Below the pieces are notes generated by a model. The model searched no databases. It had not been told where the DNA came from and saw only the letters and a program-made list of their open reading frames with translations. Both the position numbers and the translations under genes were made by a program. From a virus: DNA of 54,710 nucleotides. Where the stretch lies: positions 1 through 54,710 of IMG/VR virus record IMGVR_UViG_3300028908_000012. One strand, given 5' to 3'. Below, one piece after another: positions 19,942-54,258 of the stretch. Numbering within the stretch: position 1 is the first letter of the stretch; every line of letters starts with the position of its first letter.

Positions 19942-19942
19942 T

Positions 19943-20979: not shown

Positions 20980-20991
20980 ACGCTTACTCCT

Positions 20992-21327: not shown

Positions 21328-21336
21328 CTGATCCTC

Positions 21337-22056: not shown

Positions 22057-22072
22057 ATATCCTCCTTTAAAT

Positions 22073-22114: not shown

Positions 22115-22115
22115 A

Positions 22116-29014: not shown

Positions 29015-29047
29015 ATTATATATTAACTATGCTTAATCTATACTTAA
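29015..29047 (-). promoter_or_regulatory. Phased TTAAG promoter P29
   Basis: Read leftward: TTAAGTATAGA, TTAAGCATAGTTAATA, TATAAT. The -10 is at 29015-29020 and the TTAAG boxes at 29032-29036 and 29043-29047, with the same 11-base spacing as P24. It precedes the nuclease-ligase-methyltransferase-helicase operon and overlaps the end of the upstream methyltransferase gene. Confidence 0.65.
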
Positions 29048-31734: not shown

Positions 31735-32496
31735 TTACTGTAATCGTTCTACTATTTCTTTAGCTACCTCTTTAGCGATACGATCGATTTCTACCTTAAT
31801 TTTTGGGTCTATACCCTCTATTTCTTCATGTGCCGGTTGTGATACTGCCTCTTTTATCTCTTTGCCTGTTATACCTATATACAGGTCTCTAAAGGTACTT
31901 ATACCTCCTAACTCCGGATTTTTTCTTAGCATTTCCACTAAAAAGATAGCAAGGTTCTTTTTAGTTATTCTCTTATTTGTTATATTCGCTAATTTTTCCT
32001 TGTATTTATCCTCTTCTCTATCATGGCTAACAGGTATAACCTGCTCTTCCTCTGTCGGTGGCGGCGGTGGGTTAAATGATTGTGGTTCATTTACCTCTTC
32101 CTCCTCTGTTATCGTCGTTGATGTATTGGTGTATATATTAGTGTCTATATTCATAGGAACACTTGTTACCAATGTAGGAGGTGCAAACATCTTAGCTAAC
32201 TCCTCTTCCGACATTGGAGAATTTGGTATTACTCTTTCCTGTCTTTCTACTGCTTCTTGTCCTGTTGGAAACTTTTGCTCCTCTTCTGATGGTAGAGGTA
32301 TAAACTCCTCTTCCTCTTTTGAGGGTTTCGGTTGTACATGAGGAGCATTGTCAAAAATCTTTAACTCAGGTGGTGGAGGTGGCGGAGGAGCTGCCTCTTC
32401 CACCTGTGGTAGATTACCACCTGTGCTTACTGTCGGCTCGTTTGTTTGCTCAGGAGTTGCCGTTATTCCTGAATTGAACCATCCATAATCCGCCAT
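31735..32496 (-). CDS. Proline-rich, largely disordered protein
   Basis: 253 residues. The first ~160 residues are low complexity: proline runs (AAPPPPPPPELK; SFNPPPPPTEEEQ) mixed with Glu and Thr, clearly disordered. A compact helical C-terminal domain follows (ITKKNLAIFLVEMLRKNPELG...FRDLYIGITGKEIKEA). Translated together with the upstream Gln/Gly/Tyr-rich protein (one-base overlap) and before the polymerase, so a replication accessory or scaffold role is plausible. No family recognised. Confidence 0.6.
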   Translation of the reverse strand: MADYGWFNSGITATPEQTNEPTVSTGGNLPQVEEAAPPPPPPPELKIFDNAPHVQPKPSKEEEEFIPLPSEEEQKFPTGQEAVERQERVIPNSPMSEEELAKMFAPPTLVTSVPMNIDTNIYTNTSTTITEEEEVNEPQSFNPPPPPTEEEQVIPVSHDREEDKYKEKLANITNKRITKKNLAIFLVEMLRKNPELGGISTFRDLYIGITGKEIKEAVSQPAHEEIEGIDPKIKVEIDRIAKEVAKEIVERLQ

Positions 32497-33461
32497 TACT
32501 GTCCTCCTGTCGGAAATGGAGGCATATTGCCCATTGGTGGATTTCCTGCTGGAGGTGTACCCATTGGAGGCATATTGCCCATTGGTGGATTTCCTGCTGG
32601 AGGTGTACCCATTGGAGGCATATTGCCCATTGGTGGATTTCCTGCTGGAGGTTGATTACCTGCTGGTTGATTAGCCATCGGCATACCTACTTGTTGAGGT
32701 TGCTGCGGCTGTTGGATACCTACTCCCGTGTCATGATCACAAATCTTATTCGTCGGGATGTACCCAACGATAGGAGTCATAGGAGTTCCCTCCCTGTTCC
32801 CGCAATACAACTTAGGTTTTTTCAATGCACTAAAATCTGTGTAATTACCTGTAATTTTGGCTATCATCTGACATCTTAAAGCGTCATCGAATGATGCTTT
32901 ACTTACCTCCACCAAATGATATTTTAATGGCTTACCATCTTTGGGGTTGATTTCCCCTTTTGACATAACCTTGTTTACCATGATTACATCGTAAGGGTTG
33001 ATTATGTTACTATCCCATTTACTCGAAACAGTGGTAGGGGCATCCAATATACCTTTTTCAAGGCTGGATAACAACTCTTCAGGAGATGTAGCATGAGCGT
33101 TAAACCCATAGCCGGATAGTGCGTAAAATTCTCCATTTTGACCATGTAACTTCACTACCTCTAGCGGAATAAAACCTTGATAAAATCCAATCGTTGAAGG
33201 TACTCTGCCCCAACTTCCCCAATCACAACCGGGATAGTTGGCTTTCGGAAAGAAAGTGCCTCTATCTCCTTCTAAACTCTGAGGTTGACCGCCGAGCGGC
33301 TGACTGAAATTTGGTACATCAGGCATCGGGTTTTGCGTATTTACTACGCCACCGTATCCCTGTTGTGGGTATCCCTGTTGTGGGTATCCCTGTTGAGGGT
33401 AGCCTTGTTGTTGCTGAGGGTATCCCTGTTGAGGGTATCCCTGTGGTTGTTGTGTAAGCAT
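32496..33461 (-). CDS. Protein with low-complexity GYPQQ and GNPPM repeats
   Basis: 321 residues in three parts: an N-terminal tract with six or seven YPQQ(G) repeats, a folded middle (about residues 60-225, with W, F and G rich strands such as CDWGSWGRVPSTIGFYQGFIPLEV), and a C-terminal tract of 16-residue Pro/Met/Gly repeats. Such tracts are typical of proteins that self-associate or form condensates. As first gene of the operon with the DNA polymerase it might be a single-stranded-DNA binding or replication-compartment protein, but the middle domain is not recognised. Confidence 0.6.
   Translation of the reverse strand: MLTQQPQGYPQQGYPQQQQGYPQQGYPQQGYPQQGYGGVVNTQNPMPDVPNFSQPLGGQPQSLEGDRGTFFPKANYPGCDWGSWGRVPSTIGFYQGFIPLEVVKLHGQNGEFYALSGYGFNAHATSPEELLSSLEKGILDAPTTVSSKWDSNIINPYDVIMVNKVMSKGEINPKDGKPLKYHLVEVSKASFDDALRCQMIAKITGNYTDFSALKKPKLYCGNREGTPMTPIVGYIPTNKICDHDTGVGIQQPQQPQQVGMPMANQPAGNQPPAGNPPMGNMPPMGTPPAGNPPMGNMPPMGTPPAGNPPMGNMPPFPTGGQ
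32518..32651. repeat. 48-bp tandem repeat inside the low-complexity gene
   Basis: Two identical 48-bp units (32518-32565 and 32566-32613) and a partial third (to ~32651) encode the 16-residue Pro/Met/Gly repeats. The lack of even silent differences points to recent expansion, or homogenisation, by slippage. Confidence 0.8.
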
Positions 33462-33641: not shown

Positions 33642-36350
33642 ATGTATAGACTTAGTATGAGTAATGATATAGCTACAAAACAAATTAAAAGCGGTAATAA
33701 ATTCGGGTATGGGAAGGCAACTACTTATGGTTTTCAGGAGGTTAACTTTAGTAGTCTTAGGGAACTTGGATTTTATGCTTTGCATTACGCTGTCGCTCCT
33801 GCTATCTATAAAGGGGGTCATCGCCACTCTAAAAATTTAATGTCAATAGGGAATTGCGTAATCATTGATATTGATAAAATAAGTCAAAGGGATATGGAAA
33901 ACTTACTTCACAATATCCGTATATCACAACTAAATTTCGCCGCAATTCCCTCTCAAAATTGTAATAAAAATGATATAAGGTTTAAGTTAGTAATACCTAT
34001 TACTAACTTAACAAAAGAAAACTATAAGTTAGTATGGATTGCACTAACTAAGCAGTTCGGAATTATAGGGGATGAAGCTACTAAAGACCTTACAAGATTT
34101 TTTGCCCCTACAATACCGGCGGCAGATAAATATCCTAAATACAATCAAACGGTTGTTAAAAATATAACCGAAGTGTTTGGGTACGAAGGGTACCTATACA
34201 ACGATACCGGTTATGTTTTAGATGTTGCAAACCTTAGATTACAGGAGATAAAGGAAGCGGAAGCATTGGAGACGGTTACGCTGAAAGACGCTATCCCTTT
34301 TATCTCCGCTGAGACACCTATAAAAGTGTCTTTATATGAAGGTAAAAACAAAAAGATAGATAGGTTAGTAGATAAAACTATTACTTTAGGAGAGTTAGCA
34401 GATGTCTTAAAAGCGGGGTTGGCAGAAGATAAAGTTAATGTATATTGCCTCTATCAAAATGAGCATACAGACCCCGAAAACAAGAAGTATGCATGGGTAC
34501 AATACACCCCGACGATCGGAGCTGTTATGTACCATTGCGGCGGAACTACCTGCAAAGAGAAACATCGAAACAGTTATATAGTAGATTGTTTTGATCATAC
34601 TAAAGTAATAGGAGCTAATAAATATATGCCTATTACTTTAAGTAAGCTAATGAAAGGCCTCGAAAGAGCCTTGTTAGAGTACTATGTGGGAGAAAATCAG
34701 CTTTGGGATATTATAAATAAAAATGCCATTGCCTTGATGTTAATGGTTACAGGGGCTGAAAAGGGAGACTACCACATGACCCATATCAGCCATACAGGCG
34801 AATGGTTGGAGGCGGTAAAAGTAAGAGCTAAGGACACTTATAAATTATATAGTTTTTGGAGAGGTGTTTTATTTGATACTAGAATATACAATTTTATAAA
34901 AGCCTACAATGCAACAGTCGATGAAAATAGAAAAGTTAGCGACATAAGCTTGTTCGTAACTATTGTAGAGCATATAAATATAAACTTATCCAATGCTACA
35001 TATACATATCAGGAGGATGTAGATATATTTGCGGATAAAACTAAACTTGTTTGCGAGAAAAAAGAGTTCGCATCCTCTCTAACAGTAATACGACCTTCAT
35101 TTGATATTCAAATATCGGAAAAACCTCTTATTCTAAACTCTGTCGGGGAGGAGCTAGAAGACCCCGATAATGCACATTTTAACTATATAATAGAGACATT
35201 TAATAAGCACTGGGGAAGTATCCCTTTTGATATATTAAATTTCGCTTTGGCTAACAGCGTAACAAAGAACTATCGCCCTAAAGGGATGATAATAGAAGCG
35301 GCCTCCGGAAGTGGTAAATCTACACTAATAGAAATATTTGCTAACTTAGGGCTTACAAACACGAGTAGCCCCCTACTTACAGAGTTTCTATCAAGTAACC
35401 GATCAGCAATTAACCATCATGCTTTGATGGGTAAACTCTTCATTTCTTTCGATGAAATTGATGCATCCGCACTAAAAAGCGGGTTCACATCGAAGTTAAA
35501 GGATACCTTCAGCGGTAAATATTTTACTATTGCCCCTAAAGGTATTGCAGAAGTTACCTTATCAACAGAGGCTTTTATCCTGTTTGGAGCAGAAGCGGAG
35601 AGTTTTTATGTTAACCTAGACGAGCAGTCAAAAAGCCGGTTTGTACTATACCCTAGTAGAGATATGAAGTCTTTTAGTAGTTTAGGATTACAAAATACTT
35701 ACAGCTTAGAGACTGTAAAAGAAGTGATTACCTACTATATAGGTATATACTTCAATAACCTCATCAAATTTATAAAAACCGGTGATAGAAAAGAGGTTGT
35801 AAGGTGGGCTAATAACCTCCAACAATATTATAATAGAGTAACGGAGCAAGATAACACTCCGGAGCTGATTAAGAGAAGTATTGATGAGGATATAGCGGCA
35901 ATGGAAGACTATATGCCGGAGTATAAGAGAGGGATTGACACCTCTCGTCCGTCTGTTCAAGCTTTATATGCCTTAAATCTGGCGGATGTACTGATACCTA
36001 TTAATTTTAAAAGCCTTGACAAAGACGAGGGCTTTATACCCTTCATGCGGGAGAAAGTTAATATATCTGATGATATGGTAAATAGGCTTAAGAAATTTAA
36101 AGGGGGTAAAGATAACAAGGGTGTATCCCCCGATTGGTGGAGGCTCATAAAGACCCCTGAAATAAATAAGGAAAGAGGGTATAGGTACAACGGAACAACT
36201 AAATCTAAACTACCTTACTATATGTATGTAGCTTGTGATCCAAAAGAATTACAAGCTAAACTAAAAGCTAGTAATTTAGGTAGAATAAACTATTGGTTAT
36301 ATGTCGAATTGTTTAAAATAGCTTCAAGATTGGAGGCTTTATATGTATAG
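33642..36350 (+). CDS. Primase-helicase (PrimPol-like domain plus SF3-type helicase)
   Basis: 902 residues. N-terminus: CVIIDIDKIS (DxD metal motif of archaeo-eukaryotic-type primases) and NDIRFKLVIPITN, a pattern seen in phage/plasmid primases. A Cys-rich patch near residues 295-310 (MYHCGGTTCKEKH) may bind zinc. C-terminal helicase: IIEAASGSGKSTLIEIF (Walker A), KLFISFDEIDAS (Walker B) and a sensor region FILFGAEAESF. It probably opens and primes the origin; the iteron-like repeats at 42.4-43.9 kb are a candidate target. Start behind AAGGATGATAAATG. Whether the primase half is active cannot be told. Confidence 0.75.
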   Translation: MYRLSMSNDIATKQIKSGNKFGYGKATTYGFQEVNFSSLRELGFYALHYAVAPAIYKGGHRHSKNLMSIGNCVIIDIDKISQRDMENLLHNIRISQLNFAAIPSQNCNKNDIRFKLVIPITNLTKENYKLVWIALTKQFGIIGDEATKDLTRFFAPTIPAADKYPKYNQTVVKNITEVFGYEGYLYNDTGYVLDVANLRLQEIKEAEALETVTLKDAIPFISAETPIKVSLYEGKNKKIDRLVDKTITLGELADVLKAGLAEDKVNVYCLYQNEHTDPENKKYAWVQYTPTIGAVMYHCGGTTCKEKHRNSYIVDCFDHTKVIGANKYMPITLSKLMKGLERALLEYYVGENQLWDIINKNAIALMLMVTGAEKGDYHMTHISHTGEWLEAVKVRAKDTYKLYSFWRGVLFDTRIYNFIKAYNATVDENRKVSDISLFVTIVEHININLSNATYTYQEDVDIFADKTKLVCEKKEFASSLTVIRPSFDIQISEKPLILNSVGEELEDPDNAHFNYIIETFNKHWGSIPFDILNFALANSVTKNYRPKGMIIEAASGSGKSTLIEIFANLGLTNTSSPLLTEFLSSNRSAINHHALMGKLFISFDEIDASALKSGFTSKLKDTFSGKYFTIAPKGIAEVTLSTEAFILFGAEAESFYVNLDEQSKSRFVLYPSRDMKSFSSLGLQNTYSLETVKEVITYYIGIYFNNLIKFIKTGDRKEVVRWANNLQQYYNRVTEQDNTPELIKRSIDEDIAAMEDYMPEYKRGIDTSRPSVQALYALNLADVLIPINFKSLDKDEGFIPFMREKVNISDDMVNRLKKFKGGKDNKGVSPDWWRLIKTPEINKERGYRYNGTTKSKLPYYMYVACDPKELQAKLKASNLGRINYWLYVELFKIASRLEALYV

Positions 36351-38502: not shown

Positions 38503-39420
38503 TTATTTCTCCTCCAAATATTCTCTAAAAAGTCTTACTTTCATATTACCGTTATTTGTTAAAAACTGTTGCCATGCCTTATTTTTAGGACTCCATCGAA
38601 ACCCAAATTTTTTTAACTCCTGAATTATAGCTCTATCAGGTTTTTCATCAAAAAATATTTGATAGCGGCTTACCTCGTAATTGGTTATTATTCTACCGCC
38701 TTTTATGTTTATTACCTCGTTTTCTTTGTTTTTATGCTCTTCAAGTCTCTTTATTTTAGCTTCTAAAGTTTTAATTCTATTTAGAATATTAGCGGTATCA
38801 GCTTTATAACCATAATCCAATCTAAATTTAAAGTCTTCAAGTTGATCAGCGTCAACCGCTAAAGACTTAATAATTTCCTCCATTTGTTCTTTTGTGTTTT
38901 TTCGTAAAAGCTTATTAAACTCCTTATTAGCCGCCTGTTTCTTCTTTAAGGTGTCTAGTCTAGCTCTCATGTCGTCGGTGGTTTCAACTTTTTTAAGTGC
39001 TTTTTTAATATAAGCTACCATTTTTTCGATGTACTCCTCTTGAAGGTCGGCCGCTCTTCTCTCTCTATCATTTGCGGCTTGATGTCTTTTGGTGTTGAAA
39101 TTCCCACCGCCTACAACCATTACACTAAAACAGTTACTCAAAGCTCTTAAGCGGTCTTGATTTCGAGAAACATAACCGCTGTAAAACTTATCAAATAATT
39201 TGATAAACTCTTCTTTATTGTCCTCTCTTACATCTTTAACTAGGGTATTAAAAGCATTTAAAACAGAATACTTAAAACTAGCATGTTCATTCTTATATCT
39301 TTCCTCTGGAGTCATAGATATATTGTAGTAAGCTTTTGTTATAACCTCTTTTGATAACTCTTTATTTAGAGTTTCTTCAATCCTGTTCTCTATTTCTTCT
39401 TTATATTTGTTCATGTTCAA
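38503..39420 (-). CDS. Coiled-coil protein with C-terminal GFRWSP motif domain
   Basis: 305 residues. The first ~240 are charged helices, with a glycine patch VMVVGGGNFN near residue 100. The last ~65 residues hold YQIFFDEKPDRAIIQELKKFGFRWSPKNKAWQQFLT, a domain I recognise as a recurrent tail on phage and plasmid proteins such as DUF3560-type proteins, of unknown function. Preceded by one copy of the tandem-hairpin leader (39438-39489). Confidence 0.55.
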   Translation of the reverse strand: MNMNKYKEEIENRIEETLNKELSKEVITKAYYNISMTPEERYKNEHASFKYSVLNAFNTLVKDVREDNKEEFIKLFDKFYSGYVSRNQDRLRALSNCFSVMVVGGGNFNTKRHQAANDRERRAADLQEEYIEKMVAYIKKALKKVETTDDMRARLDTLKKKQAANKEFNKLLRKNTKEQMEEIIKSLAVDADQLEDFKFRLDYGYKADTANILNRIKTLEAKIKRLEEHKNKENEVINIKGGRIITNYEVSRYQIFFDEKPDRAIIQELKKFGFRWSPKNKAWQQFLTNNGNMKVRLFREYLEEK

Positions 39421-39437
39421 TCCTTTTATTGTGTTTT

Positions 39438-39489
39438 AGGTCATAAGACCTTTACAGGATGCTACGGATAGCACCCTAAAAAGCCTTAC
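39438..39489 (-). promoter_or_regulatory. Tandem-hairpin leader, copy A
   Basis: Minus-strand RNA: GCTTTTTAGGGTGCTA, loop TCCG, TAGCATCC (first stem), a short linker, then AGGTC, loop TTAT, GACCT (second stem), then an A-rich stretch and AAAGGAT before the ATG of the 305-residue gene. Same layout as copies B and C but with a different first loop. Confidence 0.7.
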
Positions 39490-39492: not shown

Positions 39493-40404
39493 TTAGTCTT
39501 CAAAGGCGGATAAGATCGTAAAATTTTGATCTTTTAGCATTAAAACATATTCGGTTTTCTTAATATCGAAATTACCTTTTAACCGTTTGATGTGTTTTGG
39601 TAGTAGGTATATATTACCTTTTAATGTGCCGTCTAACGGTGTTATAGGTGTTATGTTAAAACTCTCGTATTTATCGGTTATTGTTATATCTTTTGATCCC
39701 GATGCACTAAATCTTAATATATTACTTCCATGATCTGTTTTGAGCGGAGTTGCTTTTAATGTTGCAAACCCTTTTATATCTATGGTAGTAATATGTTCTG
39801 GAGTGTGGGGAATTATTCTCTCGTAATTTGGATAACTCATGGTTATATTGGAAATATCCCATGTTATAGTATAAATATCACCGCCTTTATAGGCTTTAAC
39901 ATGGTACTTTACAGCTTTTTCATCGCTGTATATCTCTTCTATATAGCCTAATTTAGCAATAAAAAGAGGTATTAAGATTTTTGTTTTATTAACAATAGAT
40001 ACTTCATTAAATATATCGTATTTTATTAATACTCTCGTATCTGTTGCTACTACATTAGTAAATGTAGGAGTAGCATTAAGGAGTATATATCTTAACTCCT
40101 GTTTTGGTGATCGTGTATCGATAAAAGGCGTAAATAACCTTAAATCGATTGGATTTAACTTATTGCTGAATACCCTATTTCTAGGGTAAAACATTTTAAA
40201 GGGCTGATTTTGATACAAATGAGTATCCCCTTTGTCTATAAACTCCTTCAAACTACCCGCTACCGGTACTATTGAAGCGCTATTTTTTTGGATAGTTATT
40301 TTGTTATTGACGGCAAACCAATCACCGTTAATAATATTAAACATAATCTCTTTATGCTCTTTAACTGGAAACAATTTTTTAATTTCTCTAGCCGCTTTTA
40401 GCAT
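39493..40404 (-). CDS. DNA polymerase sliding clamp (beta-clamp/DnaN-like)
   Basis: 303 residues, shorter than the ~370 of bacterial DnaN. Clamp-like features: LRYILLNATPTFTNVVATDTRVLIK (the vATDxxRL motif), SYPNYERIIPHTPEHITTIDI (the fPdyxrviP motif) and a C-terminal VLMLKDQNFTILSAF strand that fits the third domain. Likely forms a ring on DNA and tethers the phage polymerase. No clamp loader gene is seen, so it would depend on the host loader or self-load. Sits behind hairpin leader copy B. Confidence 0.65.
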   Translation of the reverse strand: MLKAAREIKKLFPVKEHKEIMFNIINGDWFAVNNKITIQKNSASIVPVAGSLKEFIDKGDTHLYQNQPFKMFYPRNRVFSNKLNPIDLRLFTPFIDTRSPKQELRYILLNATPTFTNVVATDTRVLIKYDIFNEVSIVNKTKILIPLFIAKLGYIEEIYSDEKAVKYHVKAYKGGDIYTITWDISNITMSYPNYERIIPHTPEHITTIDIKGFATLKATPLKTDHGSNILRFSASGSKDITITDKYESFNITPITPLDGTLKGNIYLLPKHIKRLKGNFDIKKTEYVLMLKDQNFTILSAFED

Positions 40405-40429
40405 ATTTAATCCTTTATTGTATTTATTT

Positions 40430-40481
40430 AAGTCATAAGACCTTTACAGGATGCTATAAATAGCACCCTAAAAAGCCTTAC
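40430..40481 (-). promoter_or_regulatory. Tandem-hairpin leader, copy B
   Basis: Precedes the sliding clamp gene. First stem GGGTGCTA with loop TTTA and TAGCATCC; second stem AGGTC with TTAT and GACTT. The C-to-T change in the last arm turns a G-C pair into a G-U pair on minus-strand RNA, but would be an A-C mismatch on the plus strand. This supports an RNA acting on the minus strand. Confidence 0.7.
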
Positions 40482-40487
40482 AGGCTG

Positions 40488-40934
40488 TTAATCCTCCATT
40501 ACAGGAAGATATATAGTTCTGTCATATAACTTTTTTATTTTCTTTACTGCTTTTATCTGTTTGTTTAACATACTCTTCCAACTCTCGGCTTCATACTGAT
40601 TGGGATAATATAAGTCGATTTCTTTTTGTAAATCTACTTTTCTATCGTATGTTCCTATCCCTGCTATATAATTATCGTCCTTGAATGGAAATAGATTTAT
40701 TTTTATAGCCTTTTGCTTCTCCAAAACCTTTAAAACCCTCTTTAAATGTTTTAGATGTTTATAGGCCTCCTCTAAAACCGATTGACTATCATCTTTTTTA
40801 TAAGCGATAAGCTCATAAGCCCAATCCGCCGCCTTTATCTGGTTTTGATGCCATGTTAACCCCATTATCTCACGGGCTGTCATGGTTAACAATGTACCTA
40901 CTGTAAGTTCCTTCATGTTGTTTGTGTCCTTCAT
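40488..40934 (-). CDS. Helical early-region protein
   Basis: 148 residues, mostly charged helices (LEEAYKHLKHLKRVLKVLEKQKAIKI). No known motif. The first ATG (MKDTNNMKEL) has AAAAGGATAC upstream; a second ATG follows six codons later. Flanked on both sides by tandem-hairpin leaders, so its expression is probably tuned together with the clamp gene. Confidence 0.55.
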   Translation of the reverse strand: MKDTNNMKELTVGTLLTMTAREIMGLTWHQNQIKAADWAYELIAYKKDDSQSVLEEAYKHLKHLKRVLKVLEKQKAIKINLFPFKDDNYIAGIGTYDRKVDLQKEIDLYYPNQYEAESWKSMLNKQIKAVKKIKKLYDRTIYLPVMED

Positions 40935-40957
40935 TGTGTATCCTTTTATTGTGTTTT

Positions 40958-41010
40958 AGGTCATAAGACCTTTACAGGATGCTATAAAATAGCACCCTAA
41001 AAAGCCTTAC
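40958..41010 (-). promoter_or_regulatory. Tandem-hairpin leader, copy C
   Basis: Begins at the stop codon of the 201-residue gene and precedes the 148-residue gene. Same two stems as copy A; the first loop is TTTT(A). Downstream sequence (CTAAAACACAATAAAAGGAT) is identical to copy A up to the ribosome site. Confidence 0.7.
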
Positions 41011-41612
41011 AAGCTGTTAACATAATCATTTATTCTAATTATGTCATCATTAAATTTTTTAGATAAAACAATTATAGTTTTGTCTTGAAGCTCCTTTTTG
41101 TGTTGTCTTAGTCTTCTGTCTATCTCTTCATACTCCTTTTTGAGGTGGGCTATAACCTCGTTTCGATCGCCTCTTTCCACGAATAAATTTTCGGGAAATG
41201 TTACAGGTAAAAGCGTATTTACAAGATACGCCGATTTCTTCGCTAAAAGAGGTTTTAGCGGCGTGTTTGAAATCACCTCTTTTACTTTGAGGCGCTTTTC
41301 TATCTTCACCAAATAGTACAAAATCCGGCTGTTAAGCCATTTTAGTACTTTTGGGTCAAGCGGTTCACTATTAACCTCATTTTTAGGTACTAAAAACAAC
41401 TTTTTATGACTGTTTGTCATGATATGATACTGTTCTGGTAGCTTAGAACAGTAAAATATATCCTCCAAAAAGGAGGTAAAAACCTCTTTTATATAGGCCT
41501 CGTCATCGTTTTTATCAAATAGTTCTATACTGACCTCGATTTGAGACGCTTCGAGTTGTTGCCATTCGCTTTTGCGTGGATTAATCCACTTTCTTAATTT
41601 ACCTATTATCAT
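41007..41612 (-). CDS. Early-region protein, distant paralogue of 37319-37933
   Basis: 201 residues, charged, with two strands and a helix in the middle that align with the 204-residue protein at the other end of the operon (LFLVPKNE...ILYYLVKIEKR...LLPVT). The C-terminus is a long basic/acidic helix (EEIDRRLRQHKKELQD). Overlaps the upstream gene by four bases. Function unknown. Confidence 0.55.
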   Translation of the reverse strand: MIIGKLRKWINPRKSEWQQLEASQIEVSIELFDKNDDEAYIKEVFTSFLEDIFYCSKLPEQYHIMTNSHKKLFLVPKNEVNSEPLDPKVLKWLNSRILYYLVKIEKRLKVKEVISNTPLKPLLAKKSAYLVNTLLPVTFPENLFVERGDRNEVIAHLKKEYEEIDRRLRQHKKELQDKTIIVLSKKFNDDIIRINDYVNSL

Positions 41613-42181
41613 TTTAAGTCTCCGTTTATCTCTTGTGTCTCCTCTTTTACCTCCGCTTCCGGAAGGTTGAGCGCTGCATATTTCTTGCAGTACTCATAAT
41701 TCCTTGTGTTTTCGAGGTTATCGATGATTAGAGTATGGAGATATGGCCTCATGCTATTGAAGCATAGCCAAATAGCGTTTATGATCTCGTCCCATCTATC
41801 ACCCACATAATCAGGGTCTTGACTATGCACCCCTCCTTTGCTCCAATGAGCGGCGATTATGTTCTCTGTTGCATCCCACTCTATCACATCGTATTCAAGG
41901 GTTTTATCGTCTCCATCGGGTAAAGTGAATGATAGAGTACCTGACTCTAATATATCAGGGTCTGTTATCTCTTTACTTGGTTTTATCGTCCATTTGATAT
42001 TATAATGGCTTTTTAGTCTCTCTATCAAAATCGCTATAAAGCAATTTTGCACATCGATTATCCCTTCACATGCTACATTGTCGATCATAAGACCGTAAAA
42101 TGTAGCCTTTCTAACTCTAGGCAATTCGATGCCAACTTTTTTAGCGGCTCTTACAAGTTCTCGTAACTCTCTCATTTTCAA
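41609..42181 (-). CDS. First gene of the leftward early operon, unknown
   Basis: 190 residues. N-terminal basic helix (RELRELVRAAKKVGIELPRVRK), then a beta-containing middle (LSFTLPDGDDKTLEYDVIEWDATENIIAAHWSKGG) and an acidic end (EAEVKEETQE). The first gene behind a phage-type promoter next to the non-coding region is a likely early regulator or host-takeover protein, but no motif is recognised. Confidence 0.55.
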   Translation of the reverse strand: MKMRELRELVRAAKKVGIELPRVRKATFYGLMIDNVACEGIIDVQNCFIAILIERLKSHYNIKWTIKPSKEITDPDILESGTLSFTLPDGDDKTLEYDVIEWDATENIIAAHWSKGGVHSQDPDYVGDRWDEIINAIWLCFNSMRPYLHTLIIDNLENTRNYEYCKKYAALNLPEAEVKEETQEINGDLK

Positions 42182-42222
42182 TCCTTTTTGTTTGATTTGG
42201 TTATTTGCTTAACCGTGAAAGT

Positions 42223-42255
42223 ATTATCACATAAGTAATATTAATCTACGCTTAA
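42223..42255 (-). promoter_or_regulatory. Phased TTAAG promoter P42 for the early operon
   Basis: Read leftward: TTTAAGCGTAG, ATTAATATTACTTATGTG, GATAAT. The -10-like box is at 42223-42228. A full TTAAG is at 42251-42255, and TTAAT occupies exactly the expected proximal position (42240-42244). Variant of the P24/P29/P33 design, 42 bases upstream of the first early gene. Confidence 0.6.
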
Positions 42256-42414
42256 ATATAGTAATGATTTGATAAAAATTTATAAAAATAATCGTTTTTT
42301 TCTTTAATTACCTCTCGTTTAAGTTGATTTATGTATAAACATATATGTAATATAGCGTATTTTCATAAGCATAGTTAATTTAACACATAGTTAAGCAAAT
42401 TTTAGAGGATTTAA

Positions 42415-42478
42415 TTTTAATCCGTGCTTAGTGTATTTTAATCCGTGCTTAGTGTATTTTAATCCGTGCTTAGGTGTA
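42415..42478. repeat. 21-bp tandem repeat array 1 (three units)
   Basis: Units at 42415-42435, 42436-42456 and 42457-42478 (the last has one extra base). Core of each unit: AATCCGTGCTTAGTGTA. The first two are identical. A length of 21 bp, two turns of the helix, is typical of iterons bound by replication initiators. A related inverted sequence (AAGTACGGATTA) is at 44011. Confidence 0.85.
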
Positions 42479-42510
42479 TTTTAGCGTGTGTCGGTGTCGG
42501 TGCATTTCTG

Positions 42511-42572
42511 TTTAATATTACCTTTTATTACAGGTTAATTTGTTTTGGAAGCTTAAACGGGGTAATATTAAA
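42511..42572. repeat. 12-bp perfect inverted repeat (TTTAATATTACC / GGTAATATTAAA)
   Basis: Arms at 42511-42522 and 42561-42572 with a 38-base spacer, inside the non-coding region between array 1 and the first GGGACTAAA box. It could extrude as a cruciform or be bound by a dimer. Confidence 0.7.
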
Positions 42573-43314
42573 TTGACAAAGTGGCTAAATGTCAGCTTTA
42601 TTTGCCTTTTTGGTAAGAAGGTAATGTTTTATTTACTTTAAGTTTAGGTGCGTTTTTGGTGAAATGTTCAGTTTTCGGGACTAAATTTCCTTACTTTACA
42701 TGTATAAACAAAAAAAGTTGAGACCCCCGGTAAGCCTCACGCCCTCAGCCGTGAAGGAAGGAAAATTTAGGTTCTTTAGTCCCAAAACAATTTTAAAAGT
42801 AGGTCATAAGCCCCAAATTTAGGCAATTAGCCACCGGGACTAAATCCGGGACTAAAACAGACCCCCCCATACCAAACCCCTTAATTTAGGTATTTACCCC
42901 CGATTTTGGGTATAGCACAAGCCAAAATCAATTTTAAGAGGTTTTATGTCATACCCTATATCAAGATATTAATTTTCTCATTTCGTTTAAATGCGTTCAA
43001 GCTAGGTACATTAAACGGCGTAAAAATAAGGCTTAAATTATGCCCTCATTTGAACCCCTAAATTTAGGTACTTAACTATACTTGATTTGGACTTAAGCAA
43101 AAAACCTCACTATCAAAGCCCTATATATGTATATACAAAACAGCGCAAAAATGACGGCGGGTAGGGGAGTGGCAAGGGAAAATATAGAGGGAGGCGCTAA
43201 CCCAACCACATACAAACGCCTAAATTTGGGGATTTAAGCTTAAATTAAAGCCAAAATACACGCTTGGGACTAAATCGGTGCTTAAGAAAATTTTAGTCCC
43301 AAAACAGATTTTTT

Positions 43315-43420
43315 AAGGTAGTTATAAGTGTACTAAGCTAACTTTAAGTGTACCAAAGCTAACTTTAAGTGTAGCAAAGGTAACTTTAAGTGTACTAAGG
43401 AGATTTTAAGAATACACCAA
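43315..43420. repeat. 21-bp tandem repeat array 2
   Basis: Three good units at 43336-43356, 43357-43377 and 43378-43398 (core TAACTTTAAGTGTA), with a degenerate unit on each side. Same 21-bp period as array 1 but different sequence, apart from the shared TTA(A)GTGTA. Iteron-like. Confidence 0.8.
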
Positions 43421-43622
43421 AGAGCTAAAAATTCACTTAATAATACCTTAGTAGTAATTTTGTTACTATTTTTCAGGTAATTAAGTACAAATTAAGGTAC
43501 TAAGGTTATTTTAAAGTTATAAACTTAAATGGTGCTTGTTTAAGGTGCAAAATCCGGGACTAAATTAAATCCCTAAAAATAGGGATGTCATTTTTCGCAA
43601 AATCAACCTTAAAGTGTCAGAA

Positions 43623-43671
43623 GTTAATTATACTTTACTTTTAGTAGATGCGAAAGTAAAATATAATTAAC
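43623..43671. repeat. 20-bp near-perfect inverted repeat
   Basis: Left arm 43623-43642 (GTTAATTATACTTTACTTTT) and right arm 43652-43671 (GAAAGTAAAATATAATTAAC) pair at 18 of 20 positions, the other two being possible G-T pairs, around a 9-base loop. No T-tract follows, so it is more likely a DNA or RNA structural element than a terminator. Confidence 0.7.
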
Positions 43672-44009
43672 CTCTACGAAACGGTGTATTTTTAAGGTGA
43701 AAATTTAGTCCCAAAAACACGAATTAGCGGGGAAGGTTATATCTTTAATATTTAAAATTTAAGCTTTGAGTATAACTATATTTAAATATACATTAAATGT
43801 GAACTTTAAGAAATCGTTTTGGGACTAAAAAATCCAAGCACAAGCAAAATTTTAGGTACTTTAGTCCCGGATTTAGTCCCTTAAGTGCATTTTTTAGCAC
43901 CGATTAAAATATAGGGGTGCGACCACTCCAACCTTAAACGGTAACAGAGAATTTTTATTATTTACAGAATTACGAAGAGAAAGAAAGGCGATAAAAAGAG
44001 TCCTAATTT

Positions 44010-44058
44010 AAGTACGGATTAATTAATGCAGAAACACTGCAATCTTAGTCCGTACTTA
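44010..44058 (-). terminator. Hairpin terminator after the large terminase gene
   Basis: TAAGTACGGA (44010-44019) pairs with TCCGTACTTA (44049-44058), with a second inner stem TGCAG/CTGCA. On the minus strand CTCTTTTTATCG follows about 10 bases later. Placed 33 bases beyond the terminase stop, so it probably ends that leftward transcript and insulates the repeat region. Confidence 0.6.
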
Positions 44059-44090
44059 GGAATTTTTGTGGTTAATTTATTTGTTTAAGA

Positions 44091-45752
44091 TTAGAGAGCA
44101 AGACCGTCTTTAATGGTCTCATTATCGTAAGTATCGTCATCAAGCCCGAAATATCCGTATCTATACATAAATTCAGCATTGGATTTGATAATTCCGAGCC
44201 AATTAGCCTGACAGTTATATCGGAGGCAATCAGCGGGGTGAGACCATCTGTCATGTACATCCTTATCGGTATATACATTATTGATTTTATCATACTTTTT
44301 CTTGTAATTTTGGAGTGTGAGTCTCATCAATCCGCACTCAGTGCTGAAATACATACGAGGTACTAACTCCCTGACTCTGTTGATGTGATCAACTATTCTA
44401 TGAGGTTTATCGAGAACGATAACACGGCAACCGCCTTTTTGAGCTGCCCACCTTCCGACTTGGGTATATACCGTCTCATTAGCAGAAATATGTCGAGCCA
44501 CTGAGTCATGAGGCAATATAACCAACCCGACTTCCCAATTACGATCATTTAACTCGTCATCTATTGCTTTTAGCCACCACGAGATAGGACGATCGCCACC
44601 TTCTTTATATAAGAGGTATCTATCACGGCTTCCGTGCTGACTAAAAAGTATAGAGGTATAATCATCGACACCTAAATCAAAGGTGATACAGACCTTGTAA
44701 TCAGGGTCATATAAATCACTCATACGACAGCCAAATCGACCAGCTCCCACAAGGAACTGATATTCATTCTTATACCATGTGCCTTCAACTGAGGTATAAA
44801 AGGCATCCTCAGGTACTGCGGGATATTCTCTGAGAATGAGGTCAAGAGACCTGCCTAACTCTTTAAATTTGATAGCCCACCACCATTTACGGCGGTCATC
44901 TATTTTACCTACCTTCTCTTCTAACTCTTTGAAGTATTCTCTACCTACATTATCGAGTTCCACTCTGTCATCAGATACACAGTCCGCATCTGATAACCAA
45001 GATAAGAAGACAGGGTGGAATGAGCCGACTCCTCCCCCTCCATCCTCTACCGCACTATCCCACATATACTTAAAGTCGTTGTCGCCTTCTGCTGTACTCT
45101 CTATGACGATCCAATTCATCATATCAGGCAATATAGCCTGTAAAGTTCCCGACCTTGTTTCATCTGCTCTGTCAGGGTATTTTGAGGTGATTTTGGCGTA
45201 TTCGGAGATGTGAAGCATCTGTAATGTTCCAGACCTGAACGAGAGTTGGATGTATAACTTGCTCCTGTTACTCCACTCAAAGGTCTTTGTATTGTCCTTG
45301 ACCGTGCTGACTTTGAGCCATTCAATCACCTCTTTAGGCATATTTTCCCACGCTAATTTGACTTTATCGAATAAGTTTTCCATTTCTTTTTCACCCTGAG
45401 CCATCATACCGCCTTCTACACCGTCGTAGAAGATAGCACGATCGAGGTAATTAAGAAGCATGAAGGTTGATATACCCCTCTGACGACTCTTCAATATGAT
45501 CAATCGGGGGTGGGATAGTAGTTCACTATATACTATATGCTGAGCTTCATTCATTACAAACCGGCGGAGTTTGCCTCGCTTATCTTTAATAGTATATAAA
45601 GCGTTCATTCTCCATAGTTTGTTAGGTAGATACCTGTTGATGAACTCTACATCTGTCTTAGGAGGCCTTACCATAACCTCCCAATCTACTTTATGAGAGT
45701 ACAACTCCCATAACCAAGTGGCATCAAAAGGGGTGAACCCGCCTTCATACAA
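44091..45752 (-). CDS. Terminase large subunit
   Basis: 553 residues. ATPase: IILKSRQRGISTFMLL (Walker A variant, about residue 90), MLHISEYAKIT (Walker B with catalytic Glu), WIVIESTAEGD (coupling motif). Nuclease domain: ITFDLGVDDYTS (first Asp), LVILPHDSVA, and RWSHPADCLRY with a late Asp. It cuts concatemers and pumps DNA into the head through the portal. Transcribed leftward, away from the capsid genes, with the small gene at 45745 just upstream (8-base overlap). Confidence 0.9.
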   Translation of the reverse strand: MYEGGFTPFDATWLWELYSHKVDWEVMVRPPKTDVEFINRYLPNKLWRMNALYTIKDKRGKLRRFVMNEAQHIVYSELLSHPRLIILKSRQRGISTFMLLNYLDRAIFYDGVEGGMMAQGEKEMENLFDKVKLAWENMPKEVIEWLKVSTVKDNTKTFEWSNRSKLYIQLSFRSGTLQMLHISEYAKITSKYPDRADETRSGTLQAILPDMMNWIVIESTAEGDNDFKYMWDSAVEDGGGGVGSFHPVFLSWLSDADCVSDDRVELDNVGREYFKELEEKVGKIDDRRKWWWAIKFKELGRSLDLILREYPAVPEDAFYTSVEGTWYKNEYQFLVGAGRFGCRMSDLYDPDYKVCITFDLGVDDYTSILFSQHGSRDRYLLYKEGGDRPISWWLKAIDDELNDRNWEVGLVILPHDSVARHISANETVYTQVGRWAAQKGGCRVIVLDKPHRIVDHINRVRELVPRMYFSTECGLMRLTLQNYKKKYDKINNVYTDKDVHDRWSHPADCLRYNCQANWLGIIKSNAEFMYRYGYFGLDDDTYDNETIKDGLAL

Positions 45753-46014
45753 GCCGAAGACAGCCCTTAAAGCGGCTTAGTTCGGTATTGCTGACGGCAT
45801 CTGTATCACCTCCGAACTCTTTGGTGATCTGTCTTATGAGAGAGGCTGTACGAACGAGGGAGTCGCTGTTGAGTTTGCCTTCATCAATTTTTGATTTTAG
45901 ACTATGGATGATCGTCGCAAGGCTTTCCTGCGATGTGCGGGTTATTGCTCTGCGTAGCTCTCCGCTATCTACTGTAAAACCATTCTCCATTTGAGCTATG
46001 AGGTTATCTAACAT
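45745..46014 (-). CDS. Probable terminase small subunit
   Basis: 89 residues, all helical (GELRRAITRTSQESLATIIHSLKSKIDEGK, then LVRTASLIRQITKEFGG). It lies directly before and overlaps the large terminase, the usual place for the small, DNA-recognising subunit. Size equals that of the smallest known ones. No specific HTH is obvious, so this is mostly positional. The packaging site it would recognise may lie in the repeat region at 42.2-44.1 kb. Confidence 0.55.
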   Translation of the reverse strand: MLDNLIAQMENGFTVDSGELRRAITRTSQESLATIIHSLKSKIDEGKLNSDSLVRTASLIRQITKEFGGDTDAVSNTELSRFKGCLRLV

Positions 46015-49228: not shown

Positions 49229-50146
49229 ATGGTACCATTTTATACAAAAATTGGAATGGAACAGCTCCTACTCGGAGTAGGAACTGAGATAGTTACACTC
49301 CCAGATGGATCACAGCAGACATTGACTAAAATTTCGGCGAAGGATTTTCCTTACGACTCTACACGCACAGTGCATGATGTCTATGACGAGCTGATGAACA
49401 ATCCCAACATTAAAACTTTAGCAGATAATGTTCAAGAGTTGAAGAAGTTACTCGACTTGTCCGATGATATTCTCCCTATGACGAATTATAGAGAGGACAT
49501 AGAGAAGGTAAGCGATAATGTAATAGCAGTGCAAAGGGTAGCTACTATTGTAGATCAAATCGGATGCTTTCTACACGATGTAGCTAATCTAAAGAGTCTG
49601 ACAGAGACTACATTATGCAAGTACAACAAGGCGGATGAAGAGTTAAAACTTGCAGAATGTAAAGTAGAGAAGGCACAGAGTCTTTTAGATCAGATGTCAA
49701 GTTCGTTATGCACCGCTAAGAAGATGTACGAGGAGTTTCGCAACTTTCTATCTTGTACAGAGGACGCTGCAAGGAAGGCGCAAGAACTTGTAGATATCAT
49801 GTGTTATCCTGTCGAGATAGTGTGGACGAATGACGACAACAAGTCCACATACATAGATCGTGTAAACAAGAAGATAATCTTGTACATACCTGTAAAGGTC
49901 AATCGTTGGGTGCTTAAATCCAAATGGAGTGAACAGAAGAATTCACAAGGTGAATATGTAGGATATGTTGAAACGAGACCTGATAGTCAAGAGATGACAT
50001 TCTACATACCACCTGTATGCGATAATATGCCTAAGCAAGATACGGATTTTCAACAATGGGGTCAATATCTTATAGGTACACAAACACAGCCGTTAGTCTT
50101 TACAGCTAACGACACACAAAATGAACAAATTATAATAGGAGGCTAA
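49229..50146 (+). CDS. Tail fibre-associated protein with coiled coil
   Basis: 305 residues: a mixed N-terminus (GTEIVTLPDGSQQTLTKISAKDFPYD), a long coiled coil at about residues 75-185 containing many cysteines (CFLHD, LCKYNK, ECKVEK, LCTAKK, LSCTED), and a beta C-terminus. The coiled coil with regular Cys could be cross-linked in a trimer. It lies directly before the main fibre, so it may connect the fibre to the tail. Starts just after the previous stop (TAAATG). Confidence 0.5.
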   Translation: MVPFYTKIGMEQLLLGVGTEIVTLPDGSQQTLTKISAKDFPYDSTRTVHDVYDELMNNPNIKTLADNVQELKKLLDLSDDILPMTNYREDIEKVSDNVIAVQRVATIVDQIGCFLHDVANLKSLTETTLCKYNKADEELKLAECKVEKAQSLLDQMSSSLCTAKKMYEEFRNFLSCTEDAARKAQELVDIMCYPVEIVWTNDDNKSTYIDRVNKKIILYIPVKVNRWVLKSKWSEQKNSQGEYVGYVETRPDSQEMTFYIPPVCDNMPKQDTDFQQWGQYLIGTQTQPLVFTANDTQNEQIIIGG

Positions 50147-50150
50147 TAAT

Positions 50151-53100
50151 ATGGCTTGGAAATGGTTTGTATCAGCAGGTACTATGACAGAGGATGCGGG
50201 TAAGTTAGTATTTGATGCCACATCTGTACCTGATGATGTAAAACGAGTATGGGGATTTAAGTCGCAGGATGACGGTTTGCCTGAATTCTTTAAAATAAAT
50301 ATAACTAGAGATACGCTACCTGAACCAACACTTACACCCACACCGTCAAATACTGATTTGGATACAGGAGAAGAGCTGACTATCAATATAGACAACTACG
50401 ATCCCGAGAACGACTATATCATAGATACAGGCGTACTTGAGTTGGTATCGTTCAGCGGTGGTGTGCTAAAGGTTAAATACGGGTTATATGGTGTAGATAG
50501 CTCAACTCAAATCGTAGTTAAGGCTATTAGACAGAATTACAACCCTTCTCCTACAGCAAAATTGACTGTAACACTTACTAAAACAGATGTAAGTGGTGGT
50601 GTTACTGTGAGACAAGATATTAGGGATAAAACCTCTGCATCTGATAAAGAGGTAGTATCAGAGTATGGGCTTAGGACTGTAATAGATAACTTATCTAAAC
50701 TTGCAATTAAGTCGTTCACAACTGATGATGTAAATAAAAAATACATCATAGAGTTGGAAGACGGAACTAAATACACAGCGGACTACAAGGGCGGAGTTAT
50801 TGTTACATCAGTGAGAGACAGTGCATCTGCGGAAGATACTGTAATCCCGTCAGAGAAGGCTGTACGCACGGAGTTAGATAAGAAGCACACAGCTGTAACA
50901 GGTGCAAAGCTTGTTAAAGAGTTTAAATCTGACTCAACAGAACACACTATTACCATAGTGTACGAGGACAACACTGAAACAGTGTTAGATTTAGACGATA
51001 TAGCAGTGGATATTCATGCAGATAGTGCTACGTACGACAGTGGTACATTGAAGTTAAAAGATGAAAATAGCAACGAGCTTGTATCTATAAGCATTAACAA
51101 TGTCGATACTATCGAGAACGACAAGGCTAATAAGAAGCTAATATTTACAAAGGCGGACGGTACAACTAAGACTGAAATAGCGTACGCAGATTTAATTGAT
51201 TTGGTTACAACTGTAAATGCTAATCCAACAGCTGCAAGTACAACACAAGCAGCGACAGAGGCAGCTGTGTCTGCGGCTGTTAAGGCTAACAAAGATAAGC
51301 TTGTCAAGTCCTATACGAAGGACGACACAAACAGTAAGTACATAATAGAGTTGAACGACGGAACTAAGTTAGAGGTAGCGTTCAACGAGATTGATCCTGT
51401 TACAGCGGTACGAGACAGTTCCACAGCTACAAATGACGACATACCGTCAGAGTTAGCAGTTAGAACAGAACTTGACAAGAAAGTAGATAAAACAGTTATA
51501 AAGACCGATATAAATGACAGTGATGATGAACTTGCTACAAGCAAGGCAGTTAAGACAGCATTGAACACTAAGGTAGATAAGGTTACAGGCGCTAAGTTGG
51601 TGAAGGATTTTACAGCCGATACGACCGAACATACTTTAACCATTACATTTGCAGATGACACTAAGAAAACCATAGACCTTGACGATGTTGTAGTAGATAT
51701 ATATGTAAAAGACGGAACATACAACAATGGCACTTTGAAGCTTAAGGACGAGGATGGGAATGAGCTTGTTTCAGTTGACATTAACAACATTAAAACAGTT
51801 GAGAACGATGCAGCCAATAAGAAGTTAGTATTTACTTCTTCTGACGGAACATCCAAGACTGAAATAGCTTGGATAGACATTATAGCGCACATTGAAAGCG
51901 TCAGAGCGTCTGATGCCGCAGAAGACAACATATTCCCTTCAGAGAAGGCTGTAAGAACGGCTATTGACAACGCAGCCGAAAGAACCGTTAAGTCGTACAG
52001 CAAGGACGATGTAGCTATGCAATACATCATTACACTTGCTAATGACACAGAGCTAAAAGTAGGTTATCCCCCAATGAGAGGTGATGTTAGAGATACTGAC
52101 AATGCGTCCAACACTGAATTTGTCAGTGAGAAAGCGGTAGCGGATCAAGTTAAGGCGCTGTCAGACAAGGACATCAAAGAGTTCAAGAGAGACGACACAA
52201 ACGGTGATTTGATAATCGTGTTCAACGATGACACAGAACTCACAGTTGATCTTGAGCTTGTAGTTGAGAACATAAGGGGCATAGACAATGCCGAAAATGA
52301 CAAAGTTCCAACAGAGTTAGCAGCAGCAATAGGAGATTACAAGGCGCGTTACAGATTTAAAAATGTGTATGAGTTCCCCGATGATCTTCCAACAGATGAA
52401 TGTAAAGCAGAGGTGGAGTACGCATGGGTAGATAAAGCTAAGGGTGGTAAACATAGAGGCTTTTACATGAGAACGAACGGGCAAACCGCTTGGCTATATG
52501 TGTATGACAAGAACATTGTAGAGTATGACGATGACACTCAAAGCGCTAAGCTTGTAATGAACAACTCTAATGTTTTAGAGTGGAAAGGTGATTTACCACA
52601 AGCGAGGACTTTCTACCCCATGTATCACAATGCCACACAAGGCTTTAAGAAGGTAGCGATTACTGGCGAGAACACTATCAGTGATACAAACGGAAATATC
52701 AATCTTGCTCCGGTGTTTTATTTCACTAACAACGGAGTTAAAAAGGCGAATATGCGACCACTTCCAAGTGATGGAAGTCAAGACCACTTAATTGGGCATA
52801 CCTTCATGGTGTTCAATGACGGTCTTACATTTAACACTGTTGTATCCTTCATTGACGGTTGTAAATGTTTACAAGCAGGTGGAGATATTAGACTATCAGG
52901 ATATATGGATGGTTATACATTCATGTGGATGGCAAGAGATGAGGTTGCTATCATTGGTAAGAATTACATTAACACAACAACAGGTATGGTTCCAAGTGTG
53001 TATAATGTATTGAGACACTCTTCTTGGACAGAGACTCTTTATCTACCACTTGATGGTGTTGTAAGAGAAGTAACTAAGAATAAAGAGTGGATGCAACAAA

Positions 53101-53753
53101 AGATGTCAGCTGGAACATTCGTTTGGAGAAAAGGTGCATCATGGAATCAAACAGGATGGTTTGCAAGAAGAGCTTGGAAGAATTACCTTAAAGCATACAA
53201 CAACTCAAATGGTGTATGGTTAGGTAAACGAGATTGGATCATATCTTTCTGGGTACAACCTGAGAACTTAGACCAAAATTACTTCTTAGGAAGTTTCTCA
53301 GACTCCAATTCTAACAATGATTGTCTTGTTGTAGGATGGAGAACTACAGATAAGTTCTGGGTATCCTTTGAAAATGGTCATGCAAATGGTGGATATGTAA
53401 GCCTTGATCAGTCTAAGTTTACAAGTGCTCCTCATCATTTCTGTTTACTCCACGATACATCAGACTTGAAGACAAGAGTGTATGTTGATGGAGTGTATAA
53501 AGGCAACATAAGCTCATACGATGCACAATTCAATGGTTATTTAACAATCGTAGGTGGTTCTGTAAACGGAACTATGTATTCTAATGCAACGCTTAGTGAG
53601 GTTAGAGTATATGTTCCTGTTAGTGGTAACGATGCAAACGGAATGGGTGATGGTGGACTTAGAGGAGCTTGGGCTAAAAGATTGTATGAAGCTGGATATA
53701 TCAACTTCAAATACGGCACAAGAGCATATGGCTTAACCCCACAGTTGGGATAA
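50151..53753 (+). CDS. Main tail fibre with PSEKAV repeats and LamG-like tip
   Basis: 1200 residues. An N-terminal ~60-residue attachment part is followed by a beta domain, then about six repeats between residues ~155 and 720, each with a motif such as AEDTVIPSEKAVRTELDKK followed by two strands (VKEFKSDSTEHTITIVY type). Such SEKAVRT repeats are common in phage fibre shafts. The last ~475 residues carry a Cys pair and a LamG-like tip (YVDGVYKGN). Host receptor binding. Start behind AGGAGGC. The C-terminal ~480 residues recur as the allele at 3-1439. Confidence 0.75.
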   Translation: MAWKWFVSAGTMTEDAGKLVFDATSVPDDVKRVWGFKSQDDGLPEFFKINITRDTLPEPTLTPTPSNTDLDTGEELTINIDNYDPENDYIIDTGVLELVSFSGGVLKVKYGLYGVDSSTQIVVKAIRQNYNPSPTAKLTVTLTKTDVSGGVTVRQDIRDKTSASDKEVVSEYGLRTVIDNLSKLAIKSFTTDDVNKKYIIELEDGTKYTADYKGGVIVTSVRDSASAEDTVIPSEKAVRTELDKKHTAVTGAKLVKEFKSDSTEHTITIVYEDNTETVLDLDDIAVDIHADSATYDSGTLKLKDENSNELVSISINNVDTIENDKANKKLIFTKADGTTKTEIAYADLIDLVTTVNANPTAASTTQAATEAAVSAAVKANKDKLVKSYTKDDTNSKYIIELNDGTKLEVAFNEIDPVTAVRDSSTATNDDIPSELAVRTELDKKVDKTVIKTDINDSDDELATSKAVKTALNTKVDKVTGAKLVKDFTADTTEHTLTITFADDTKKTIDLDDVVVDIYVKDGTYNNGTLKLKDEDGNELVSVDINNIKTVENDAANKKLVFTSSDGTSKTEIAWIDIIAHIESVRASDAAEDNIFPSEKAVRTAIDNAAERTVKSYSKDDVAMQYIITLANDTELKVGYPPMRGDVRDTDNASNTEFVSEKAVADQVKALSDKDIKEFKRDDTNGDLIIVFNDDTELTVDLELVVENIRGIDNAENDKVPTELAAAIGDYKARYRFKNVYEFPDDLPTDECKAEVEYAWVDKAKGGKHRGFYMRTNGQTAWLYVYDKNIVEYDDDTQSAKLVMNNSNVLEWKGDLPQARTFYPMYHNATQGFKKVAITGENTISDTNGNINLAPVFYFTNNGVKKANMRPLPSDGSQDHLIGHTFMVFNDGLTFNTVVSFIDGCKCLQAGGDIRLSGYMDGYTFMWMARDEVAIIGKNYINTTTGMVPSVYNVLRHSSWTETLYLPLDGVVREVTKNKEWMQQKMSAGTFVWRKGASWNQTGWFARRAWKNYLKAYNNSNGVWLGKRDWIISFWVQPENLDQNYFLGSFSDSNSNNDCLVVGWRTTDKFWVSFENGHANGGYVSLDQSKFTSAPHHFCLLHDTSDLKTRVYVDGVYKGNISSYDAQFNGYLTIVGGSVNGTMYSNATLSEVRVYVPVSGNDANGMGDGGLRGAWAKRLYEAGYINFKYGTRAYGLTPQLG

Positions 53754-53775
53754 TTAAATTATAAGGAGATAACAC

Positions 53776-54249
53776 ATGAAAGCGATAACTGACAATCAAG
53801 TAATCGAGGCATTGGCACAACTAAAAAGCGACATTCAAAATGGAGAGAAAGCAAACAACATAACAGTTGAGCTGTTAGAGGGAATTAAAGAGGGCGAGGG
53901 TCAAGAAATCTTCGATGCCCTCCTTAATAAGTATGGGCTTCTATCGTATGATGAGGTAGAGGACATTTATACTCTAAACCTAAGTAAGGATATAGTTTAT
54001 GAAATCCAACTTCAAAACCTTTTAACAGACATTGAAGATGGCGCAGATGTCGAGGAGGGTTTCTCTTACACACAGCTATTGCATACTTTGGGTTACGATA
54101 ATGTTACTAATTTGGATAGCGACGGTGCTTTACTGTCTCAACTCGTAGCGTCCATTAACAAAGCAGGGCAGTATAACGCTATTGTAGGAGGATTTGCAAG
54201 AGTAGGGGCTTTATTGCAAGTACTTAAAGATAGAGTAGAAGCAGAATAA
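53776..54249 (+). CDS. Small acidic tail-fibre-associated protein (variant B)
   Basis: 157 residues, three substitutions from the copy at 1462-1935. It has the same spacing from the fibre gene and the same AAGGAGAT ribosome site. Conservation between variants is much higher than for the fibre tip, so this gene is either more constrained or was recently exchanged between strains. Confidence 0.7.
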   Translation: MKAITDNQVIEALAQLKSDIQNGEKANNITVELLEGIKEGEGQEIFDALLNKYGLLSYDEVEDIYTLNLSKDIVYEIQLQNLLTDIEDGADVEEGFSYTQLLHTLGYDNVTNLDSDGALLSQLVASINKAGQYNAIVGGFARVGALLQVLKDRVEAE

Positions 54250-54258
54250 GGATAAGCA

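Follow-up and report, generated by a model that had tools for sequence, protein, structure and literature searches.

What is the function of a 9-mer, GGGACTAAA, that stands in eleven exact copies in the non-coding DNA between the terminase and the early genes of a virus? We addressed this in a virus record of 54,710 bases, the whole of which is called the window below. A first-pass annotation had read the repeats, together with two 21-bp arrays, as a multi-site origin or packaging region, and our comparisons indicate that the gap is probably either a site of genome cutting and packaging or a start of copying.

Eleven exact boxes in one non-coding gap

Family matches support the words 'phage' and 'terminase' in the first-pass annotation; besides the terminase large subunit (TerL) they include a major head protein, portal, DNA polymerase A, ligase, exonuclease and a primase-like protein. 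TerL and the DNA polymerase have their best cultured matches in the podoviruses KF-1, PH1 and VPMS1, whose TerL proteins are 36–38% identical to that of the window by tblastn, and these two proteins and the gene order place the virus among the Kafunavirus-like podoviruses at protein identities far below genus level. The contig appears circular with a join between two strains, because its ends (1-2396 and 52315-54710) overlap by approx. 2.4 kb at 88.8% identity; the genome is probably a circle of about 52.3 kb, with the contig running on into a variant strain. An exact end repeat or terminal repeat of the window was rejected, the ends being this strain overlap.

Searching both strands of the window for exact matches recovered all eleven copies of the 9-mer that had been listed, six forward and five reverse, between 42677 and 43880 (Table 1). 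Fewer than one had been expected by chance and, in agreement with this, shuffling the whole window gave a mean of 0.57 copies and a maximum of 4, with 11 reached in no shuffle. The claimed confinement to the gap between the early operon and the terminase also held: the gap contains 11 exact copies and no one-mismatch variant, whereas elsewhere in the window exact copies are absent and one-mismatch variants number nine. The sequence around the boxes varies from copy to copy, except at two doublets of 12-bp spacing (GGGACTAAATCCGGGACTAAA; 42836-42856 on the forward and 43860-43880 on the reverse strand), which are perfect inverted repeats of each other. As the flanks differ, the boxes did not arise by duplication of a single longer sequence, and it appears that the 9-mer itself is kept.

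Table 1 Features of the terminase–early operon gap and of the genes discussed
Feature	Position	Strand	Basis or remark
Primase-helicase-like protein (DUF5906)	33642-36350	+	PF19263 2.7e-7, phrog_2135
First early gene, co-oriented with TerL	41609-42181	-	About 57–59% identical to nearest relative's syntenic gene
Non-coding region (NCR), TerL to early operon, 1.9 kb	42182-44090		No listed ORF of at least 60 aa
TATATGTTTATACA	42332-42345	-	By eye; also upstream of early operon in nearest relative
21-bp tandem array, 3.3 copies (ATTTTAATCCGTGCTTAGTGT)	42414-42483		Repeat search
GGGACTAAA box 1	42677-42685	+	Exact match
GGGACTAAA box 2	42775-42783	-	Exact match
CCCAAATTTAGG, near-palindrome, AAATTT centre	42812-42823		
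GGGACTAAA box 3, doublet with box 4, spacing 12	42836-42844	+	Exact match
GGGACTAAA box 4	42848-42856	+	Exact match
CCTAAATTTAGG, perfect palindrome	43057-43068		
Candidate GC-rich core CTTGCCACTCCCCTACCCGCCGTCAT	43151-43176	-	Holds CCCTACCC at 43159-43166
CCTAAATTTGGG, near-palindrome	43219-43230		
GGGACTAAA box 5	43266-43274	+	Exact match
GGGACTAAA box 6	43292-43300	-	Exact match
21-bp tandem array, 3.4 copies (TAAGTGTACCAAAGCTAACTT)	43325-43395		Repeat search
GGGACTAAA box 7	43556-43564	+	Exact match
Hairpin-forming inverted repeat, 23-nt arms, 11-nt loop	43619-43675		-22.5 kcal/mol, z -8.5
GGGACTAAA box 8	43704-43712	-	Exact match
GGGACTAAA box 9	43821-43829	+	Exact match
GGGACTAAA box 10, doublet with box 11	43860-43868	-	Exact match
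GGGACTAAA box 11	43872-43880	-	Exact match
TerL	44091-45752	-	PHROG phrog_2, 7e-20
Small-terminase candidate, 89 aa, overlaps TerL start	45745-46014	-	Position only

The gap, which has TerL on its upstream side and the co-oriented early operon downstream, is AT-rich (about 32% GC). Both 21-bp arrays exist, the first of them outside the coordinates given by the first-pass annotation, and a 21-bp array is the strongest autocorrelation signal of the window; the boxes are irregularly spaced. These arrays, and the tandem periodic arrays in many relatives, are what would be seen if the repeats had grown neutrally, by functionless slippage or recombination in non-coding DNA. However, the boxes are dispersed over two strands, their flanks differ and no variant with a single mismatch occurs among them, a pattern consistent with selection on the 9-mer, and a directional GC-rich core found in such gaps recurs across lineages at about 40% TerL identity, so that we regard neutral growth as improbable.

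The TATATGTTTATACA site marks a probable early promoter area, and a weak sigma-70-like match lies at 42378-42349 on the reverse strand; in a promoter scan, promoter-like sites were no more numerous than in shuffles, and Rfam and tRNA scans gave no match. The product of the first early gene has no family match, and its structure model was too poor to use (pLDDT 43). Three consecutive early genes are each directly preceded by a near-identical leader of 70–84 bp (86–94%; 39420-39489, 40402-40491 and 40940-41020) with two hairpins, possibly an RNA processing or stabilising element. Elsewhere, the window encodes two DNA methyltransferases, of C5-cytosine and N6/N4 type (25640-26638 and 29016-29729), neither of which is matched in the nearest relative, and a 48-bp perfect tandem repeat (2.8 copies, 32517-32652) lies inside the ORF 32496-33461.

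Gaps after the terminase in related viruses

The nearest relative found, IMGVR_UViG_3300028908_000002 (50,182 bp), has a TerL 47% identical to that of the window and shares the order TerL, gap, early gene. No copy of GGGACTAAA was found in its syntenic gap of approx. 2.7 kb. The first-pass annotation had held that absence from close relatives would refute its reading; the outcome is mixed, the 9-mer being absent from a gap that is itself rich in repeats, with 249- and 322-bp-spaced repeats, 43-nt palindromes and copies of CTCCTGCTACGCAG, and at 47% this relative is not close. The three 43-nt palindromes are near-perfect (10028-10070, 10349-10391 and 10599-10641) and their arms vary jointly (CCTCTTAAC/GTTAAGAGG versus CCCCTTAAC/GTTAAGGGG); because the arms change together, this suggests that a hairpin or dyad is kept. 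Doublets and inverted pairs of GGGACTAAA in other viruses were rejected as a lead, occurring in 5 and 16 contigs respectively, approximately the chance level by estimate, and within the sequence stretches covered none of these contigs had a related terminase. Nor was GGGACTAAA found in a phage context among the open-literature matches listed.

To compare such gaps more widely, nine terminases were aligned, giving 80 loci, and the segment after each TerL stop codon was taken. A segment was scored as repeat-enriched where its most repeated 8-mer exceeded shuffles at z ≥ 4, and the remaining 1.5-kb segments of these loci served as controls. The post-TerL segment was enriched in 28 of 57 relatives (49%) as against 19 of 406 other segments (4.7%), a comparison between loci that are related to one another, with controls that consist mainly of coding sequence. 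Outside the gaps, most of the strongest clusters examined were tandem arrays with a regular unit of 15, 42 or 63 bp, resembling repeats within coding sequence, and one array of the 15-bp type sits within an annotated pentapeptide-repeat gene. The repeated word varies by lineage (TGGACGTC in PH1, ATTCTAAG in L058, AGACAATC in L074 and GGACATCT in L072). By sequence comparison, the 9-mer GGGACTAAA is thus private to this virus, whereas the type of region recurs in its relatives.

Two further elements accompany the repeats. An AT palindrome of the TTAATAAATTTATTAA type occurs in 40 of 62 gaps, compared with 2.1 in shuffles and 21 of 531 other segments. The second is the directional GC-rich core, which approximates to GCCGGACTGGCCCTAGCCCC and reads CCCTACCC in the subgroup of the window. 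At a threshold of at least 12 bits, a 26-position matrix of this core, built on these same gaps with each gap scored with itself left out, matched 46 of 76 gaps in the forward and 16 of 76 in the reverse direction, and 61 of 1254 other strand-segments. Since the matrix was built on the gaps that it scored, the plain word CCCTA[CG]CC was used as a check, and it occurred forward in 20 of 71 NCRs, in reverse in 1 of 71 and in 2 of 1146 other strand-segments, as well as in three of the four new loci from bacterial-genome contigs that had enough sequence.

In the window, the candidate core overlaps the 24-mer with the highest GC content in the NCR (75%). It lies mid-array, between boxes 1–4 on its left and boxes 5–11 on its right, and has the same strand sense relative to TerL as the cores of the relatives. 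Scored with the window left out, it reaches 12.2 bits, about what chance yields at best across the window (12.3), and CCCTACCC has one further occurrence elsewhere; for these reasons its identity as the core, which we infer, rests on position and orientation.

The position after TerL and before the early genes is shared by the cultured podoviruses PH1, VPMS1, KF-1, ZHX and Amaethon. Like the window, the Kafunavirus-like podoviruses (KF-1, PH1, VPMS1 and Amaethon) have the order TerS, TerL, gap, early genes, and a related DNA polymerase; unlike it, they have other boxes and gaps of roughly 0.5–1 kb rather than 1.9 kb. PH1 resembles the window in having 12 TGGACGTC boxes after its GC core and differs from it in an 8-bp period. 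Such 8-bp periodic arrays directly follow the core in PH1 and several relatives (L071–L074 and L090), and that of PH1, a Pseudoalteromonas phage (L034 in our set), is degenerate and spans 8790-9150. TerL relatives of siphovirus layout have portal or other genes directly after TerL and lack such a gap, so that its presence does not follow from TerL alone; as a test of a packaging core these relatives were set aside as uninformative, given chance hits at high GC and the different layout. This recurrence of clusters, core and palindromes after TerL supports the first-pass view of a multi-site region read by a protein, for packaging or as an origin, which we still regard as the best kind of explanation.

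Packaging junction, origin or operator array

In T7, gene 19 (TerL) is followed by CCTAAAG boxes around a GC-rich terminal repeat and then by the early promoters; 11 copies lie in bases 17-338, on one strand and with an array period of 13 bp, and further copies lie just before the right end. These boxes, which go by the names SRL and SRR, act in end processing. As in this concatemer junction, the boxes of the window are short and exact, flank a GC-rich stretch, cluster nowhere but in the gap and fall between TerL and the early promoters. The window differs in box sequence, in the irregular, two-strand layout of its boxes and in its late genes, which read from the opposite strand, and the terminal repeat, established in T7, would be hypothetical in the window. 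Judged by these comparisons, the region is a recurring post-terminase junction of this podovirus group and a variant of the T7 kind.

We therefore favour, tentatively and with somewhat less than even confidence, a genome-end junction over an iteron origin, although the latter is nearly as good. In a replicating concatemer the gap would link successive genome copies, the terminase end of the first abutting the early-gene end of the second, and the terminase would load and cut there. GGGACTAAA would be the virus's own recognition box, bound in several copies flanking the GC-rich core by a phage protein, either the small terminase or a partner, and the core would be a conserved site of action of the packaging machinery. 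Boxes and reader would change fast between lineages, and core and AT palindromes slowly. The exactness and confinement of the boxes, the placement of the gap directly after TerL and before co-oriented early genes as in the cultured podoviruses, the repeat enrichment, the directional core and the common order with T7 all argue for such a junction.

Several observations sit less well with it. The assemblies of near-full-length relatives run through the gap and end at scattered points, a pattern that speaks against plain cohesive ends and fits circular permutation or terminal repeats; records of Edwardsiella phage termini carry no annotated genome ends. In lambda-type cos sites a GC-rich core beside the terminase genes is flanked by binding sites, and the window likewise has a candidate GC-rich core adjoining its terminase genes with flanking candidate sites, but the scattered end points of its relatives differ from fixed cohesive ends. 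The small-terminase candidate is short, at 89 aa, and its alignment with the N-terminal part of related proteins is poor; the candidate has no family match and no useful PDB match, and its predicted model is all-helical (pLDDT 78). The chance-level score of the window's core, the siphovirus-layout relatives without a gap and the mostly coding controls also weigh on this side.

An alternative that we consider possible, at a lower probability, is a replication origin in which GGGACTAAA boxes are iterons for a phage initiator, perhaps the DUF5906 primase-helicase acting like the alpha protein of phage P4. Multiple exact short repeats in an AT-rich gap with hairpins would suit an origin, and the virus encodes a second primase-like protein in addition to the primase-helicase-like one. 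P4 alpha combines primase and helicase activity and binds the repeats at its own origin, where several short repeats are read by the one initiator (PMC4234260). Binding by alpha is through a winged-helix domain and is followed by unwinding and priming, and the 33642-36350 protein would act in a similar way. No relatives of the DUF5906 protein were found in viral contigs, and tblastn gave only three weak matches, none in KF-1-like phages, yet PH1 has a strong repeat cluster; PH1 would consequently need a different initiator. GC skew was rejected as an origin marker, since it follows gene orientation and transcription, turning positive at 34–37 kb where a gene pair reads the other way, and thus does not help to locate an origin.

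Motif and helicase both differ in the nearest relative, as an origin would predict, but so do the packaging genes. Blocks of the window (49229-54710 plus 1-7319, and 19731-23494), which include tail-type genes, have about 82–93% DNA identity to this relative against deep divergence in the remainder, which points to recent exchange of modules between viruses with a probable common host. The proteins for packaging and replication have identities of 30–61%, the helicase about 30%. As a natural experiment the exchange is uninformative: box sequence and both gene sets differ, so covariation of the boxes cannot separate packaging from an origin.

The early operon follows the gap directly, and the early-promoter area resembles that of the nearest relative, which raises the question of whether the boxes serve early-operon control, as sites for a repressor or activator, or titrate a host protein that would be sequestered on the first DNA entering the cell. 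Irregular boxes on two strands would suit operators. However, about 500–1700 bp separate the boxes from the first early gene downstream and no box stands near the probable promoter, eleven exact copies would be a large number for operators, and clusters of other sequence recur in the relatives. We consider this role unlikely, if slightly less so than neutral growth.

A candidate specificity code for the group

For this widespread podovirus group, the open literature searched holds no description of the site of cutting, packaging or copy start. The comparison narrows the likely control elements to one short non-coding region, whose sequences can be tested in the cultured phages PH1 and KF-1. 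It is possible, at well below even probability, that this large, mostly uncultivated group shares an undescribed cis-acting junction composed of a slowly changing directional GC-rich core, AT palindromes and fast-changing lineage-specific boxes, with a specificity code between box and reader. If so, the box–reader pair would limit each phage to packaging or replicating its own DNA, and such a code would explain how co-infecting relatives that exchange tail genes avoid packaging or replicating each other's genomes.
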